From Prevotellaceae bacterium MN60 (GTDB lineage Bacteria > Bacteroidota > Bacteroidia > Bacteroidales > Bacteroidaceae): a DNA stretch of 64,000 bases. Below, piece by piece: positions 36,773 through 43,467 of the stretch (positions are counted from its first letter, which is position 1; each line of letters begins with the position of its first letter). Location of the stretch: the NCBI GenBank assembly GCA_900199555.1, contig FZQZ01000001.1, positions 248,001 to 312,000 on the forward strand. Direction: 5' to 3'. The notes under the pieces were generated by a model that saw only the letters and a list, made by a program, of their open reading frames with translations, searched no databases and was not told the DNA's origin. The position numbers were made by a program, and so were the translations under genes.

Positions 36773-36860
36773 GAAAAATCTCATTTATTTTCACATCCAC
36801 TTGTCTTTTTCTCGGAATAATTGTCTTTTTGCTAAATACTTTAAAATATTGCACAAAAAT

Positions 36861-36892
36861 TTTGTTGATGTGCAGAAAAAGAGTTACCTTTG
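36861..36892 (+). promoter_or_regulatory. Promoter of the acyl-CoA synthetase pair
   Basis: TTTG (36861-36864), a 20-base spacer and TACCTTTG (36885-36892). It fixes the start of the first gene at 36916. Confidence 0.8.
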
Positions 36893-36915
36893 CACAAAAT
36901 TTTGAAAATTGTGCA

Positions 36916-38574
36916 ATGAACGATATACCAAGTTTCAATTCCTACATCGAAAATACGATTAAGGATAACTGGTTGCTCGACGCCTTGACAGACTATAAGA
37001 GCACTACCTTACAGTATCACGATGTAGCACGTAAGATAGAGAAGCTGCACATCATGATGGAGGCAGCAGGTATTCAAAAAGGAGACAGGATAGCCGTGTG
37101 CGGACGTAATTCCGCACACTGGTCTGTGGCTTTTCTTGCCACATTGACCTATGGTGCAGTAATCGTACCTATTCTTCACGAATTTAATGCCGAACAGATT
37201 CACAATATCGTTAATCACTCTGAGTCACGCCTATTGTTTGTAGGCGATTATGTGGCTCCCACTATTGATGCTGCAGAGATGCCCCAATTGGAAGGTATCT
37301 TCAATCTTCCCGACTTCTCGCTACATACGTCTCGCAACGAACAGTTGACGGATGCTCGTGAGCGTCTGAACGAATTGTTCGGTCATAAGTTCCCCAATGC
37401 CTATCGCCAAAAGGATATCCACTGGCATCAGGACACCCCCGAAGAGCTTTGCATGATTAACTACACCTCTGGAACCACAGGTTTCTCTAAGGGTGTTATG
37501 CTGCCCTATCGCGCCCTATGGGGGAATGTGGATTTCTGCCAGAAGTATCTGGGCAGCCACATGCCTAAATTCAGCAATACGCTGAGCATCCTGCCTATGG
37601 CTCACATGTATGGCATGACTATCGAGTTCCTATTCCCCTTCTGCTCAGGCTATCACCTGCACTTCCTCACCCGTCTGCCTTCGCCAGCAATCATTGCCGA
37701 AGCTTTCAAGGAAGTAAAGCCCGATGTAGTTGTGGCCGTACCTCTTATTATTGAGAAGATTATCCGCAAACGTGTGTTCCCAAAGATTCAGAGCAACGTT
37801 ATCAAGATATTGCTGCAGATGCCTGTCGTATCAAAGAAGGTAAAAGAGCGCATCTGTCGCGAGGTATATGCAGCCTTTGGAGGAAAAGCCTATGAGATTA
37901 TCGTAGGTGGCGCTCCGCTCAACCAAGAGATTGAGCAATTCCTCAAAGGCATCGATTTCCCTATCACTGTTGGCTATGGCACAACCGAGTGTGCACCGCT
38001 CATTTCCTATAGCGATTACCACGACTTCGAGCCTGGCTCATGTGGTGTACCTCTGCCCAGCATGGAAGTAAAGATTGACTCTAACGATCCACAAAACGTA
38101 GAGGGCGAGATTATCACGCGAGGTGTCAACATGATGACGGGCTACTATAAAAATGAAGAAGCCACCCGCCAGGCTATCGACAAGGATGGATGGTATCACA
38201 CTGGCGACCTTGCCACCATGTCTGCAGATGGTCATATCTTTATTCGTGGCCGTCTGAAGAACATGCTCTTAGGAGCTAACGGACAAAACGTATATCCAGA
38301 GGAAATCGAGGATAAGCTCAACTCTATGCCACTCATCAGCGAAAGCTTGATAGTACAGCGTGGCGACAAGTTGGTAGCACTCATTCATCCCGATGTAGAG
38401 GAAGTCAAGGAGATGGACCTCTCACAAGAGGAATTGGAGAGCGCCATGGAGCAAAACCGTCAGCAGCTCAACGAGCAGCTGCCCGTATACAGCAAACTAC
38501 AAGCCTTTGAACTTCTGGAAGAGGAATTCCAGAAGACACCCAAAAAGAGTATAAAACGCTATTTATATAAATAA
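36916..38574 (+). CDS. AMP-binding acyl-CoA synthetase, copy 1
   Basis: 552 residues from the ATG at 36916 (MNDIPSFNSYIENTIKDNW); the frame upstream crosses the promoter. ANL-superfamily motifs: P-loop MINYTSGTTGFSKGVMLPYR, GYGTTECAPLISY, GWYHTGDLATMSADGHIFIRGRLKNMLLGANGQNVYPEEIE and a C-terminal Lys in KTPKKSIKRYLYK. It activates a fatty acid to acyl-CoA through an acyl-adenylate. Its neighbour is a close paralogue. Confidence 0.88.
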   Translation: MNDIPSFNSYIENTIKDNWLLDALTDYKSTTLQYHDVARKIEKLHIMMEAAGIQKGDRIAVCGRNSAHWSVAFLATLTYGAVIVPILHEFNAEQIHNIVNHSESRLLFVGDYVAPTIDAAEMPQLEGIFNLPDFSLHTSRNEQLTDARERLNELFGHKFPNAYRQKDIHWHQDTPEELCMINYTSGTTGFSKGVMLPYRALWGNVDFCQKYLGSHMPKFSNTLSILPMAHMYGMTIEFLFPFCSGYHLHFLTRLPSPAIIAEAFKEVKPDVVVAVPLIIEKIIRKRVFPKIQSNVIKILLQMPVVSKKVKERICREVYAAFGGKAYEIIVGGAPLNQEIEQFLKGIDFPITVGYGTTECAPLISYSDYHDFEPGSCGVPLPSMEVKIDSNDPQNVEGEIITRGVNMMTGYYKNEEATRQAIDKDGWYHTGDLATMSADGHIFIRGRLKNMLLGANGQNVYPEEIEDKLNSMPLISESLIVQRGDKLVALIHPDVEEVKEMDLSQEELESAMEQNRQQLNEQLPVYSKLQAFELLEEEFQKTPKKSIKRYLYK

Positions 38575-38580
38575 GGTATT

Positions 38581-40242
38581 ATGGAAAACGTACCCAGCTT
38601 TAATCAATTGATTCAAAAAAGCATCATCGACAACTGGGATCTTGATGCACTGACAGACTACAAGGGAGCCACCTTGCAATACCATGATGTGGCTCGTAAA
38701 ATAGAGAAACTGCACATTCTGTTCGAGAACTGTGGAGTGACAAAGGGCGATAAGATTGCCCTTTGCGGACGTAACAGCAGCCAGTGGGCTGTGGCTTTCC
38801 TTGCCACCCTCACCTATGGCGCTATTGCCGTACCCATCCTTCACGAGTTTATGGCCGAGCAGATTCACAACATTGTTAACCACTCTGATGCGAAGTTGCT
38901 CTTTGTTGGTGACCATGTAGCCACTCAGATTGACCCCATGCAGATGCCCCACCTTGAGGGTATCATCAACAACCCTGACTACTCGCTCATGCTGTCGCGT
39001 ACCGACAAGCTGACCTATGCCCGCGAGCACCTTAACGAGCTCTACGGCAAGAAGTTCCCCAAATATTTCCGTAAGGAACACGTCAACTACTATACCGAGG
39101 CTAACGGCGATGAGCTGGCAATGATTAACTACACCTCAGGAACCACTGGTTTCTCTAAGGGTGTAATGATTCCCTATCGTGCCATGTGGTCAAACTACGA
39201 CTTTGCCGAGCATGTATTGGGTAAGATTATCGGTCGCAACGACCGCATCATCTCTATCCTGCCTATGGCCCACATGTATGGTATGGCATTCGAATTTCTT
39301 TTCGAATTCCTCCACGGCTGTCATGTTTACTACCTCAACCGCATCCCCTCGCCAGCCATCATTGCACAGGCCTTTGCTGACATCAAGCCGAAGATTATTA
39401 TCGCTGTGCCCTTGGTTATCGAGAAGATTATCCGCAAGAAGGTATTCCCCAAGATACAAAACAATCGCATGCGCCTGCTGCTCAATATGCCAGTCATCTC
39501 AAAGAAGGTGCGCCACATGATTTGCCAGGAGGTTGTCAAGGCCTTTGGCGGCGAGCTCTACGAGGTGATTATTGGCGGTGCAGCCTTCAATCAGGAAGTA
39601 GAGTCATTCCTCAAGCGCATCGAGTTCCCCTACACCGTAGGTTACGGAGCCACCGAGTGTGCACCTATCATCTGCTATCGCGACTGGCAGACCTTCAAGC
39701 AGGGCTCTTGCGGACAGGCAGCCTACCACATGCAGGTAAAAATCAATTCTTCTAATCCCGCTAAGGTACCTGGTGAAATTCTTGCCAAAGGTCTTAACAC
39801 CATGTTGGGATACTATAAGAATGACGAGGCTACTCGCGAAGTTCTTGACAACGAAGGCTGGTATCATACGGGCGACCTCGGCACGATGGATGCTGACGGC
39901 AACGTCTTCATCAATGGCCGCTCAAAGAATATGCTGCTTGGTCCCAGCGGACAGAACATCTACCCAGAGGAGATTGAGGATAAACTCAACTCTATGGCAA
40001 TGGTAGTAGAAAGTGTTGTTGTACAGCGCGACAACAAGCTCGTAGGTCTTGTTTATCCCGACTACGACGAAGCCAAGAACATGCGCTTCAATGAGGAAGA
40101 CATCAAGAACATCATGGAGCAGAACCGCCTGCAGCTCAACGAGCTATTGCCTGCCTATGAGAAGATTACCGAAATAGAGATACGCCAAGAGGAGTTCGAA
40201 AAGACTCCTAAGCGCAGTATCAAGCGCTTCTTGTATACTTAA
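38581..40242 (+). CDS. AMP-binding acyl-CoA synthetase, copy 2
   Basis: 553 residues. It aligns with copy 1 over its full length with almost no gaps (for example SIIDNWDLDALTDYKGATLQYHDVARKIEKLHIL and MINYTSGTTGFSKGVMIPYR), so the two arose by tandem duplication. The active-site and C-terminal Lys motifs are kept (KTPKRSIKRFLYT). It starts 6 bases after copy 1 and is preceded by TAAGGTATT. Differences around the acyl pocket could give different chain preference. Confidence 0.88.
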   Translation: MENVPSFNQLIQKSIIDNWDLDALTDYKGATLQYHDVARKIEKLHILFENCGVTKGDKIALCGRNSSQWAVAFLATLTYGAIAVPILHEFMAEQIHNIVNHSDAKLLFVGDHVATQIDPMQMPHLEGIINNPDYSLMLSRTDKLTYAREHLNELYGKKFPKYFRKEHVNYYTEANGDELAMINYTSGTTGFSKGVMIPYRAMWSNYDFAEHVLGKIIGRNDRIISILPMAHMYGMAFEFLFEFLHGCHVYYLNRIPSPAIIAQAFADIKPKIIIAVPLVIEKIIRKKVFPKIQNNRMRLLLNMPVISKKVRHMICQEVVKAFGGELYEVIIGGAAFNQEVESFLKRIEFPYTVGYGATECAPIICYRDWQTFKQGSCGQAAYHMQVKINSSNPAKVPGEILAKGLNTMLGYYKNDEATREVLDNEGWYHTGDLGTMDADGNVFINGRSKNMLLGPSGQNIYPEEIEDKLNSMAMVVESVVVQRDNKLVGLVYPDYDEAKNMRFNEEDIKNIMEQNRLQLNELLPAYEKITEIEIRQEEFEKTPKRSIKRFLYT

Positions 40243-41570: not shown

Positions 41571-41598
41571 CTTACAAAGAAAAAGGTTAGAAAACACC

Positions 41599-42342
41599 CT
41601 TCACATTCACGCGTAACTCTATGTGCTATAGAGCGTTAAGCGTGAATAGTGTTTTCAGGTCTATTTCGGTGAGCGCATCAGTCTGTCCTCGTTCTTGTAT
41701 CAGCCTATCCCTGCTCTGAATTAGCCTGATTCAGCGCTGAGTTAGCTACACTCAGCGCCCAATCAGTTACTTTCGCACATCAATAGTTATTGTATTGCAC
41801 CTCGAAATAGCTGTATTCAGAGCTGAATGTAGCTAATTCAGAGAGCGAAAAGCATTATGCGTAAATTCGAGGAGAATTATGCGTAAATTCAAGGAGAATT
41901 ATGCCGTCAAACGAGCACAAAAGTAATGCTTGCATTAATTTTGTCGAGTGCAGGCATAATCGACGATAGTCAATTATGCCGTCAAACTATCCGTAAAGTG
42001 CCGTCAAACTCCTCGAATAATGTCGTTAAACTATTTGTGTTCTGGAATAGAGGCTATATAGCATCGGGAAAGTGCCTATTTTACATGTCTATATAGGCAC
42101 TTTTGCAGTCCAAAACAGCCACTATTCCGATGCTAAAGTGGCACTATTCACGGAGATTCCAAATACGCCATGCACAATTCTGAATACGCCACGTACAGTT
42201 CCGAATACGCCACAGAAAAATTCGTGCGTGGCACGCACTGAATCGTATACGCCACGTGCGGAATCGTACGTGGCGTATATATCGAAAAACACTATTCACG
42301 CATATTGTACTATGAGATAATACGATACGCGTGAATGTGAAG
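41599..42342. repeat. Inverted-repeat-bounded array of 21-22-bp imperfect palindromes
   Basis: Non-coding. Outer ends CTTCACATTCACGCGTA (41599-41615) and its exact inverse (42326-42342); inner ends GCGTGAATAGTGTTTT (41640-41655) and inverse (42286-42301). Each end folds into its own hairpin (41606-41646, 42295-42335). Inside are four blocks of short palindromes at 21-22-bp spacing: 41716-41841, 41852-41917 (three 22-bp units), 41971-42036 (three 22-bp units) and 42156-42282 (six units). A 10-bp-stem hairpin stands at 42070-42102. No frame in it looks coding. Confidence 0.8.
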
Positions 42343-42459
42343 AGTTATTTTTAAATCATTTTATTATATAAGGTATTCCTTTCCATCCGTGATGAAACAG
42401 ATATCAGTTTTTGTGTCTATAGAAGCAACAAATAGGTAGATTGGGGAAAGTCCCGTAGG

Positions 42460-43467
42460 TTACAACTTTCTTCTTAGCCAATTGTACAAGGCCAAACGAG
42501 CGACTTGAAGAATTTCAAGTCTTTGAAGCCAATCTTCGTCCTGTATCTTAAGATCACCATAAAGATCAAAATCACTAAGGAACAATATACCATCATGAGA
42601 AATATCACATCTTTTTTTGTAAAACTGCCTAAATTTCTCTTCAGATTTGCCAGCAACATAGATTTTCAAATATCTAAGGAACCTTGCTGTAGGTCTTATT
42701 TTTTCCCCCTTCCCATATTTGCTGTAATCTAATTTAGCCATACCCTCTATGGATGAAACTATCGATAGCAAAGATACGCTCCTTTTGGTATCAAACAAGT
42801 CTATACCATCATAGAGCAAGCCAATGCATTGAGCCACAATGTTCCTATCATCCAAATCCAAAGAATAATACCTGTCTAAGACATATTCTAAGCCAAAAGG
42901 GAATTTGATTTCCGGGTTTCCCGCTAAATGCGGATTATTAGTAAAATACTTCATTGGATCATCTGTAGTTTCATAGTAATTACAACAAGTTGTAAAATCT
43001 GTAACATTTAAGTCTTTACCAATATTGGGATATCGATACCCTCTAATAATCCAATGACTAGTTTGGTTTTCAAAGTAACTCAATTCTTCCTTACTTAAGT
43101 CTGAGACATCCTTCATTGGTACCTGAATACCCCAACAGTCATATTTGGAATTATACTCAAAAAAGTGGAAATTAGTCACAGATGATAGCAAATGGAGAAT
43201 TTCTTTCCTAACACGTATTTCATGAGGTATTTTTCGACATATTCGCAAAACATCTTCAGATAAGCCTTTCTTTCTGAACTCTTCTTCGCATGCAATATCT
43301 TCCTCAACCTCTTCTACTTGATATTCTAAGATTGCAGGAAAATGAGAGGCATACTTAGAAAAAGGAGCATCTGACAAATAATAGATTGGAACTAATTGGA
43401 ATATCTCACCATACTTATAAGCCTTCAAAAGAGGCGAATTAGTAAAGATAATACTTCTACAAATCAT
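42460..43467 (-). CDS. HEPN-type protein, candidate abortive-infection RNase
   Basis: 335 residues, AT-rich codons unlike the neighbours. The C-terminal ~100 residues are helical and carry RCDISH (Arg286-x4-His291) within FRQFYKKRCDISHDGILFLSD, the R-x4-6-H motif of HEPN RNases, followed by a helix EDWLQRLEILQVARLALYNWL as in Apea-like HEPN domains. The N-terminal ~200 residues match nothing I know. HEPN proteins of this layout often act in phage defence by cutting RNA. It sits alone after the palindrome array. Confidence 0.65.
   Translation of the reverse strand: MICRSIIFTNSPLLKAYKYGEIFQLVPIYYLSDAPFSKYASHFPAILEYQVEEVEEDIACEEEFRKKGLSEDVLRICRKIPHEIRVRKEILHLLSSVTNFHFFEYNSKYDCWGIQVPMKDVSDLSKEELSYFENQTSHWIIRGYRYPNIGKDLNVTDFTTCCNYYETTDDPMKYFTNNPHLAGNPEIKFPFGLEYVLDRYYSLDLDDRNIVAQCIGLLYDGIDLFDTKRSVSLLSIVSSIEGMAKLDYSKYGKGEKIRPTARFLRYLKIYVAGKSEEKFRQFYKKRCDISHDGILFLSDFDLYGDLKIQDEDWLQRLEILQVARLALYNWLRRKL

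Follow-up and report, generated by a model that had tools for sequence, protein, structure and literature searches.

The array at about 41.6-42.4 kb of the window (the whole stretch of 64,000 nucleotides analysed here) is one copy of a lineage-specific mosaic repeat, a conclusion that is well supported. The blocks inside this repeat are members of a class of 22-bp arrays found across the genus; the evidence for this is good but sampled. The reading that we favour, and to which we give an even chance, is that the lineage-specific repeat is built from genus-wide, spacing-constrained 22-bp arrays that are most likely tiled by a protein, and that its end hairpins would serve as transcription terminators.

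Structure of the element

The original prediction described short imperfect palindromes enclosed by two nested inverted repeats. The 17-bp outer ends (41599-41615, CTTCACATTCACGCGTA; 42326-42342, TACGCGTGAATGTGAAG) and the 16-bp inner ends (41640-41655; 42286-42301) pair as perfect reverse complements, with coordinates exactly as predicted, and all five arm pairs that had been named are present. The conserved ends extend outward about 25-35 bp past these coordinates, with a consensus of approximately TACAGAAAATTTTTGCTTGAAAAAAGTC before TTCAC (Table 1). The interior of the element consists of six unit-bearing blocks (S, A, B, C, D and F) and an inserted palindromic block (N). Each of the six has its own period of 21 or 22 bp, and their unit sequences differ.

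Table 1. Features of the element and its neighbours, in window coordinates.
Feature	Position	Strand	Description
RAYT-like (REP-associated tyrosine transposase-like) gene, 412 aa	40332..41570	+	NF047646 26.1 bits, cut-off 80; probably outside the element
Left end E	41575..41655	+	Outer A/T-rich part about 41575-41598 (boundary approximate), then TTCACATTCACGCG hairpin, then inward-pointing T-run
Block S	41657..41714	+	Degenerate 21-22-bp units, merging gradually into block A
Block A	41713..41838	+	21-bp units, TTAGCTACACTCAGCGCTGAA-like; alignment of 33 copies, 31 from the own genome
Block B	41846..41912	+	22-bp units (ATTATGCGTAAATTCAAGGAGA)
Block N	41913..41974	+	Palindromic insert splitting block C; present too in L064, L065, L070, L071, L074 and L166
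Block C	41972..42037	+	22-bp units (ATGCCGTCAAACT...)
Block D	42041..42158	+	About five 22-bp units, folding as a single long imperfect hairpin
Block F	42156..42278	+	21-bp units (AATACGCCACGTAC...)
Right end E	42285..42375	-	Inverted copy of the left end; outer boundary approximate
335-aa ORF without Pfam match	42460..43467	opposite to RAYT-like gene	Right neighbour of the gap

The 21-22-bp spacing is not a chance pattern, with lag identities of 0.352 (lag 21) and 0.381 (lag 22) compared with 0.253 in shuffled sequence. Against 300 dinucleotide shuffles, the interior (41657-42285) showed z values of 5.6 at lag 21 and 6.8 at lag 22, and lags 42 and 44 were raised as well (z = 3.3 and 4.4, respectively). 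The period is 21 bp in two of the window blocks. The more specific idea of exactly two helical turns per unit is not singled out, since the blocks are of 21 or 22 bp. Dyads with arms of at least 5 and loops of 3-9 numbered 12 in the interior (shuffle mean 4.1), and none of the 300 shuffles reached this number. With arms of at least 6, four dyads were observed versus 1.07 in shuffles (8 of 300 reached four), and with arms of at least 7, one versus 0.32 (84 of 300 reached one). The excess falls off with longer arms and therefore sits in short dyads. A chance origin of the array was rejected by these shuffle statistics together with the dispersed copies described below.

Copies in the own genome and in a sibling genome

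A search for related copies in the own genome (G000; 2.74 Mb in 24 contigs), with positions 41571-42400 as query, was positive. It returned at least 164 matching pieces at about 38 places, comprising at least 18 copies with both ends and additional partial ones; these copy counts, obtained by scoring 40 of 81 candidates, are lower bounds. The ends lie 596-1010 bp apart in the 18 both-ended copies. When up to one mismatch is allowed, the own genome contains 60 occurrences of the end motif TTCACMTTCACRCR, compared with three of the reversed pattern. The 38 places were fetched and twelve block types were mapped on them. The usual block order is E> S> A> H1> B> C> H2> D> (G) (F) E<, and in many copies blocks are missing, inverted or moved (e.g. 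L058, L062, L065, L066 and L078). A second class of element has no E ends and is arranged as H2> H2< A B C (L074, L079, L081, L082 and L083; L166, L167 and L169 in the sibling genome). Block A is solitary in L068 and L069, as are blocks C and N together in L070. The gene-context scan omitted by design any ORF sharing at least 60 nt with a copy, so the intergenic position of the copies was checked separately; no ORF of at least 100 aa covered more than 50 nt of any copy, except for one of 104 aa in L055. Mean pairwise identity among the G000 copies is 80-81% in blocks A and E and 77% in block D.

Among 199 other genomes of the same genus sampled, only one sibling (G055) carries the composite in full. 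In a full scan of the same-genus genomes, an exact 15-mer of block C was found 33 times in G000, 28 times in G055 and in none of the 198 others. At a threshold of 1e-8, seven pieces matched in G055 and one short piece each in G057 and G114, which are lower bounds from a search that scored two candidates per genome. Identity between G055 and G000 varies by site from 73 to 99%. Two of the full copies in G055 represent insertions shared with G000 (L161 = L060 and L162 = L066). These shared copies are about 95% identical, with a single 1-bp gap and with differences that occur in patches, as by gene conversion. In the B-C array adjoining the L162/L066 copy, the two genomes differ by one 22-bp unit. 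Slippage likewise yields indels of unit length, and this difference is therefore no proof of selection. At the site corresponding to the window locus, both the array and the RAYT-like gene are missing from G055. Of 18 flank pieces, 11 were matched in G055, and among twelve loci compared only L054 (L170 on the G055 side) shows a near-clean presence/absence, with the site occupied in G000 and only the merged outer ends remaining in G055. At the L052 site, an E element in G000 and an element of the second (H2) class in the sibling (L169) occupy the same intergenic gap.

Arrays with a 22-bp period in other genomes of the genus

Short 22-bp arrays of quite different sequence are present in other species (L096, L105, L111, L115 and L121). 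The 22-bp arrays noticed at relatives of the RAYT-like gene led us to sample other genomes of the genus. The sample consisted of 38 pieces of 20 kb, taken at fixed round coordinates from five complete same-genus genomes and containing 112 kb of non-coding DNA. Arrays with periods of 13-40 were called in the non-coding part by Tandem Repeats Finder, the non-coding mask being defined by greedy ORFs of at least 100 aa and not by curated genes. A period of exactly 22 bp was found in 33 of the 62 non-coding arrays of the five genomes, whereas periods of 20, 21, 23 and 24 bp were represented by two, two, one and two arrays, respectively. All five genomes were positive, with 5, 7, 2, 8 and 11 period-22 arrays. 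Nine other Bacteroidales genomes, one of them of the same family (36 pieces, 80 kb non-coding), gave eight arrays, none of which had a period of 22 (33/62 vs 0/8, Fisher’s exact test: p = 0.006), and no array was called in 100 kb of E. coli K-12. Arrays of all periods were scarcer in the controls (8 in 80 kb vs 62 in 112 kb non-coding), and thus part of the contrast reflects fewer arrays.

A caller-free analysis gave lag-22 z values of 10.4, 6.0, 4.3, 8.3 and 8.2 in the five genomes, with lag 44 also raised in four of them. In three of the five, no lag scored above lag 22; lag 7 was higher in G016, and lags 9, 7 and 6 were higher in G045. The control genomes ranged from -1.0 to 2.8 at lag 22, the highest value coming from the genome of the same family but another genus. 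Four random pieces of the own genome were flat at lag 22 (z = 1.0) and had a lag-21 z of 3.6, and these pieces and the window together contained four period-22 arrays out of 12. When 37 period-22 arrays from six genomes were compared by blastn (1e-3), none of the 545 between-genome pairs and 25 of the 121 within-genome pairs matched. Therefore, the array sequence is species-specific and shared among the loci of a species, and it is the period that is common. The units were also enriched in dyads, with 159 paired positions over 26 typed units versus 142.8 +/- 3.7 in shuffles, only 3 of the 26 being individually significant; the typed units were 26 of the 33 with period 22, and the remaining seven resemble them. 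The gene context of the period-22 arrays (16 tandem, 8 divergent, 7 convergent and 2 unknown vs 133, 62 and 52 in the background) revealed no preference. In one array of period 22 (L207:2917-3030), two unit types alternate to form a 44-bp higher-order repeat.

The original prediction suggested a protein-binding array, and the notion of a spacing-constrained array fits the 22-bp arrays of other species, although the selection for the dyad that was part of this proposal is unsupported (see below). In such a scheme, the arrays would be putative DNA sites tiled by a candidate protein that would cover about 22 bp. The spacing would be selected while the sequence drifts, and unit gain and loss together with gene conversion may homogenise the array sequence within each genome. 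More tentatively, and at somewhat less than an even chance, the arrays could form a “22-bp ruler” in Prevotella, in which intergenic array sequences turn over completely between species, the period remains exactly 22 bp, and a genus-specific spacing-reading factor with one subunit pair per 22 bp tolerates drift of the sequence and co-evolves with the arrays. The window element would then combine several of these arrays, with terminator hairpins as caps.

Intergenic repeats confined to one lineage are mostly dealt with species by species. Here, the sampled genomes, five in full and the own genome in part, agree in unit length to a single base pair but have no unit sequence in common between species. 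Shared length without shared sequence speaks for a common constraint, physical or protein-based, that is invisible to sequence searches. Should a binding protein underlie the arrays, it would be a candidate factor for chromosome organisation or silencing in a genus that is dominant in gut and rumen, and the period offers a sequence-free route to its sites.

Terminal hairpins

In the window and the 38 places of the own genome, the motif TTCAC[AC]TTCA is identical in all 39 ends, a conservation that is partly preselected because the ends were chosen by a pattern of this motif with two changes allowed. The hairpin and an inward T-run come next to it. Spurious E matches at L071, L076 and L083 had been removed before the count of 39, and L049 was additionally left out of the end alignment. 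At least five T within 8 nt follow the inner arm in 42 of 46 ends, compared with 5% of random positions at the same loci, and such a run follows the outer arm within 16 nt in 43 of 46 ends, compared with 16%; the 46 ends are from both sibling genomes and, being mutually related, are not independent. Of the loci bearing E, 11 of 21 lie between convergent genes, 7 between tandem and 3 between divergent ones. The convergent background, for which the 64-kb window alone was used, was 8 of 53 neighbour pairs (Fisher’s exact test: p = 0.002) or 5 of 31 wider gaps (p = 0.013). Solo E hairpins also occur, one of which begins 47 nt past a tRNA-Arg gene (L179). Others are L180, L182, L184, L187 (close to a contig end) and L189, and E-like solo hairpins were found in the sibling genome at L173, L175 and L178. 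A simple terminator scan did not report E; the E loop exceeds the length that the scan accepts. Judging from sequence, the E ends may work as two-way transcription terminators that would seal the array off from the flanking genes.

At two loci (L059:2377-3426 and L057:2336-3209), one gene lies between a complete E element and a solo E that comes after it in the same direction. A transposase between the E hairpins was considered for these loci and rejected. The L057 gene matches DUF6169, and the L059 gene matches CdiA_C below the cut-off.

Comparison with known repeats and the mobile element explanation

Modular intergenic repeats with variable inner modules include BOX of Streptococcus pneumoniae and the Neisseria intergenic mosaic elements, which are made of other modules and occur in other phyla. 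We know of no fixed 22-bp period in either of them. A literature search of open-licence papers found no description of a repeat such as the present one in Prevotella or Bacteroidetes. The earlier statement that no named element has such a layout holds for the exact layout, and yet BrickBuilt, a miniature element (MITE) with an internal 23-nt minisatellite, comes near it. The closest known repeats are BrickBuilt, the nearest in layout, and PINSR, a known lineage-specific repeat of Prevotella.

BrickBuilt is found in 19 intergenic copies in Porphyromonas gingivalis, a member of the Bacteroidales, and its inner 23-nt tandem repeat lies between a leader and a tail with inverted-repeat ends (PMC4596501). 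Its unit number varies and its ends are sometimes missing, and Rho-independent terminators and/or polyadenylation sites were predicted around 10 of the 19 copies (PMC4596501). It has a single 23-nt unit (AGAYCATARTATCCTCTCRTRTG) and 12-nt IS5-like terminal repeats, and was reported in P. gingivalis and P. gulae (PMC4596501). The window element is similar in occurring in the Bacteroidales as intergenic copies with an inner tandem array between inverted ends. Relative to BrickBuilt, it differs by its six unit types of 21-22 bp, its ends of about 75 bp that form hairpins, its block inversion and reordering, and the absence of an IS with matching ends among the fetched loci. The unit sequence, the unit length and the end sequences all differ from the AGAYCATARTATCCTCTCRTRTG unit and the IS5-like ends described there, and the element is not BrickBuilt proper. 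As in MITEs in general, inverted terminal repeats are common to the dispersed copies (39 ends and 18 both-ended copies).

PINSR is a 188-bp repeat of the Prevotella intermedia/nigrescens group, present in 177 and 184 copies in two strains (PMC4755523). It is lineage-specific, intergenic and thought to be non-coding, with most of its sites common to the strains (PMC4755523). It was reported without terminal inverted repeats, and a 22-bp period is not mentioned in the section that describes it (PMC4755523). By this description, the window element is likewise a lineage-specific repeat in Prevotella, but unlike PINSR, with its 188-bp unit and no reported terminal inverted repeats, it has inverted ends.

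The main rival for the element is a passive MITE with a minisatellite. In this explanation, the repeat is a non-autonomous element of the BrickBuilt type, a transposase acting in trans moves it by its E ends, which serve as terminal inverted repeats, and the inner arrays are functionless passengers varied by slippage. We consider it unlikely, though still a serious competitor. The dispersed copies with inverted ends and no long ORF inside are consistent with it, as are the L054/L170 site, filled in G000 and with only merged outer ends in the sibling, and the constancy of TTCAC[AC]TTCA, subject to the selection of ends noted above. However, no target-site duplication was detected above control in 18 copies (mean shared word of 5.1 vs 5.5 for mismatched flanks, the boundary being fuzzy). 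The copies within G000 are less alike (77-81%) than those shared with the sibling (about 95%), and they therefore look older than the split of the two genomes. Given this apparent age and the lack of a target-site duplication, recent transposition is not supported. Neither was a transposase seen between E ends among the fetched loci, which account for most of the 60 end-motif places. Finally, a passenger minisatellite leaves unexplained why the 22-bp unit length recurs in other species with different sequences.

The neighbouring RAYT-like gene

The RAYT-like gene had no match in Pfam, and NCBIfam NF047646 was matched only below threshold. About five such genes are present in the own genome. 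Relatives of the gene are 24-70% identical to it and mostly come from rumen Prevotella-like genomes. REP, BIME and REPIN sequences are palindromes of 20-40 bp, mostly singletons or dimers, and GTAG and CGTC tags type their families (PMC3733652). The window element resembles them in having short palindromic units in intergenic gaps, with several families per genome and clusters. Unlike them, its units are tiled head to tail with a fixed period, and no link to RAYT was upheld.

An element of the REPIN/BIME kind, mobilised by the transposase-like gene just upstream, is an improbable explanation in our view. The gene ends a few bases ahead of the left end E, another gene of this type is located about 0.7 kb from C-N-C blocks (L071), and block C contains CGTC and block A GTAG, which are REP tags (PMC3733652). 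However, a comparable composite was found neither beside any of the 33 relatives examined (of 38 loci) nor beside a second G000 gene. A single E-like motif lies near one relative (L116). The best 300-bp lag scores at the relatives were 0.433, 0.413, 0.41 and 0.393; the window scored 0.48, and the controls reached at most 0.39. Three of these four top-scoring relatives have short upstream period-22 arrays (L096, L115 and L121). The sibling has E elements but no close full-length relative of the gene, only a 60-aa fragment (57% identity) and more distant relatives. Seven period-22 arrays were called in 160 kb of one genome (G024) that gave no RAYT or Y1 match, and four others (G276, G312, G319 and G324) have Y1 transposases and no period-22 arrays. 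Period-22 arrays thus do not track Y1/RAYT transposases, although the Y1 profile (PF01797) also misses the gene in the window. A RAYT-driven array was rejected as the main reading, because the relatives examined lack the composite, the sibling has E elements without a close full-length relative of the gene, and G024 has arrays without a RAYT or Y1 match. The position of the gene next to the element is probably incidental.

At the locus of the closest relative listed (70% identity), an inverted repeat composed of ATGACGCTA- and ATGACGG-like pieces comes immediately after the gene (L095:5215-5420). In the window, two similar ORFs (581 and 553 aa) are arranged in tandem upstream of the RAYT-like gene (36829-40242). 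These ORFs presumably encode proteins resembling AMP-dependent ligases.

Pairing of the arms and RNA folding

Arms that differ and still pair had been taken as a sign of selection for the dyad. This was not borne out, as the pairing state of the window is in the minority at the telling positions. In 33 aligned copies, the telling pair of CTGAAT/ATTCAG (41716-41734) is formed in 8 of 31 and is A.C in 23. The telling pairs of GCTGAGT/ACTCAGC are formed in 11 and 12 of 33 copies, the outer pairs of CTGAAT/ATTCAG at 41823-41841 in 15 of 35 and 17 of 37, and one pair of GAATT/AATTC in 16 of 31, and CAATA/TATTG is nearly constant across copies. Changes on both sides of a pair are rare, occurring in at most two copies per pair in the 41823-41841 dyad and in none in GAATT/AATTC. 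The covariation test over homologous copies thus indicates that the five named dyads are not kept by compensating changes.

The E hairpin showed a different pattern. One of its stem pairs is AT in 23 ends, TA in 18 and unpaired in 5 of the 46. Overall, 85.5% of the cells are paired, and the covariation score was matched by 1 of 500 shuffles, but the pairs with two-sided changes numbered three, below the shuffled mean of 4.4, and two haplotypes account for much of the covariation. The folded-RNA alternative raised in the original prediction finds no support in blocks A and D, where compensatory changes along a stable common fold are absent, and one clear pair in E.

Transcription of the array into a structured non-coding RNA, or into a set of RNA hairpins, is very improbable as an explanation, since the stable folding of block D (-25.4 to -53.5 kcal/mol in 26 copies), the one clear two-sided change in E and two-sided changes at 4 of 8 pairs of the RNAalifold consensus of block A stand against the weakness of that block A fold (-2.4 kcal/mol), the absence of any two-sided change in the RNAalifold fold of block D, and an Rfam search of the window that, at gathering thresholds, reported no family at the array and nothing elsewhere except RNase P and a tRNA. 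On the + strand, the three block A dyads are rich in A.C (76 vs 16 G.T), whereas E has many G.T, and therefore no single strand is favoured throughout.

A further block type, with the dyad GCGACGGCCGTCGC, lies close to E-like hairpins (L173:640-1280, L175:1786-2130 and L179:2027-2300). Its exact 18-mer occurs in 5 of 200 same-genus genomes, and its units are spaced by 22 bp (44 in L179).
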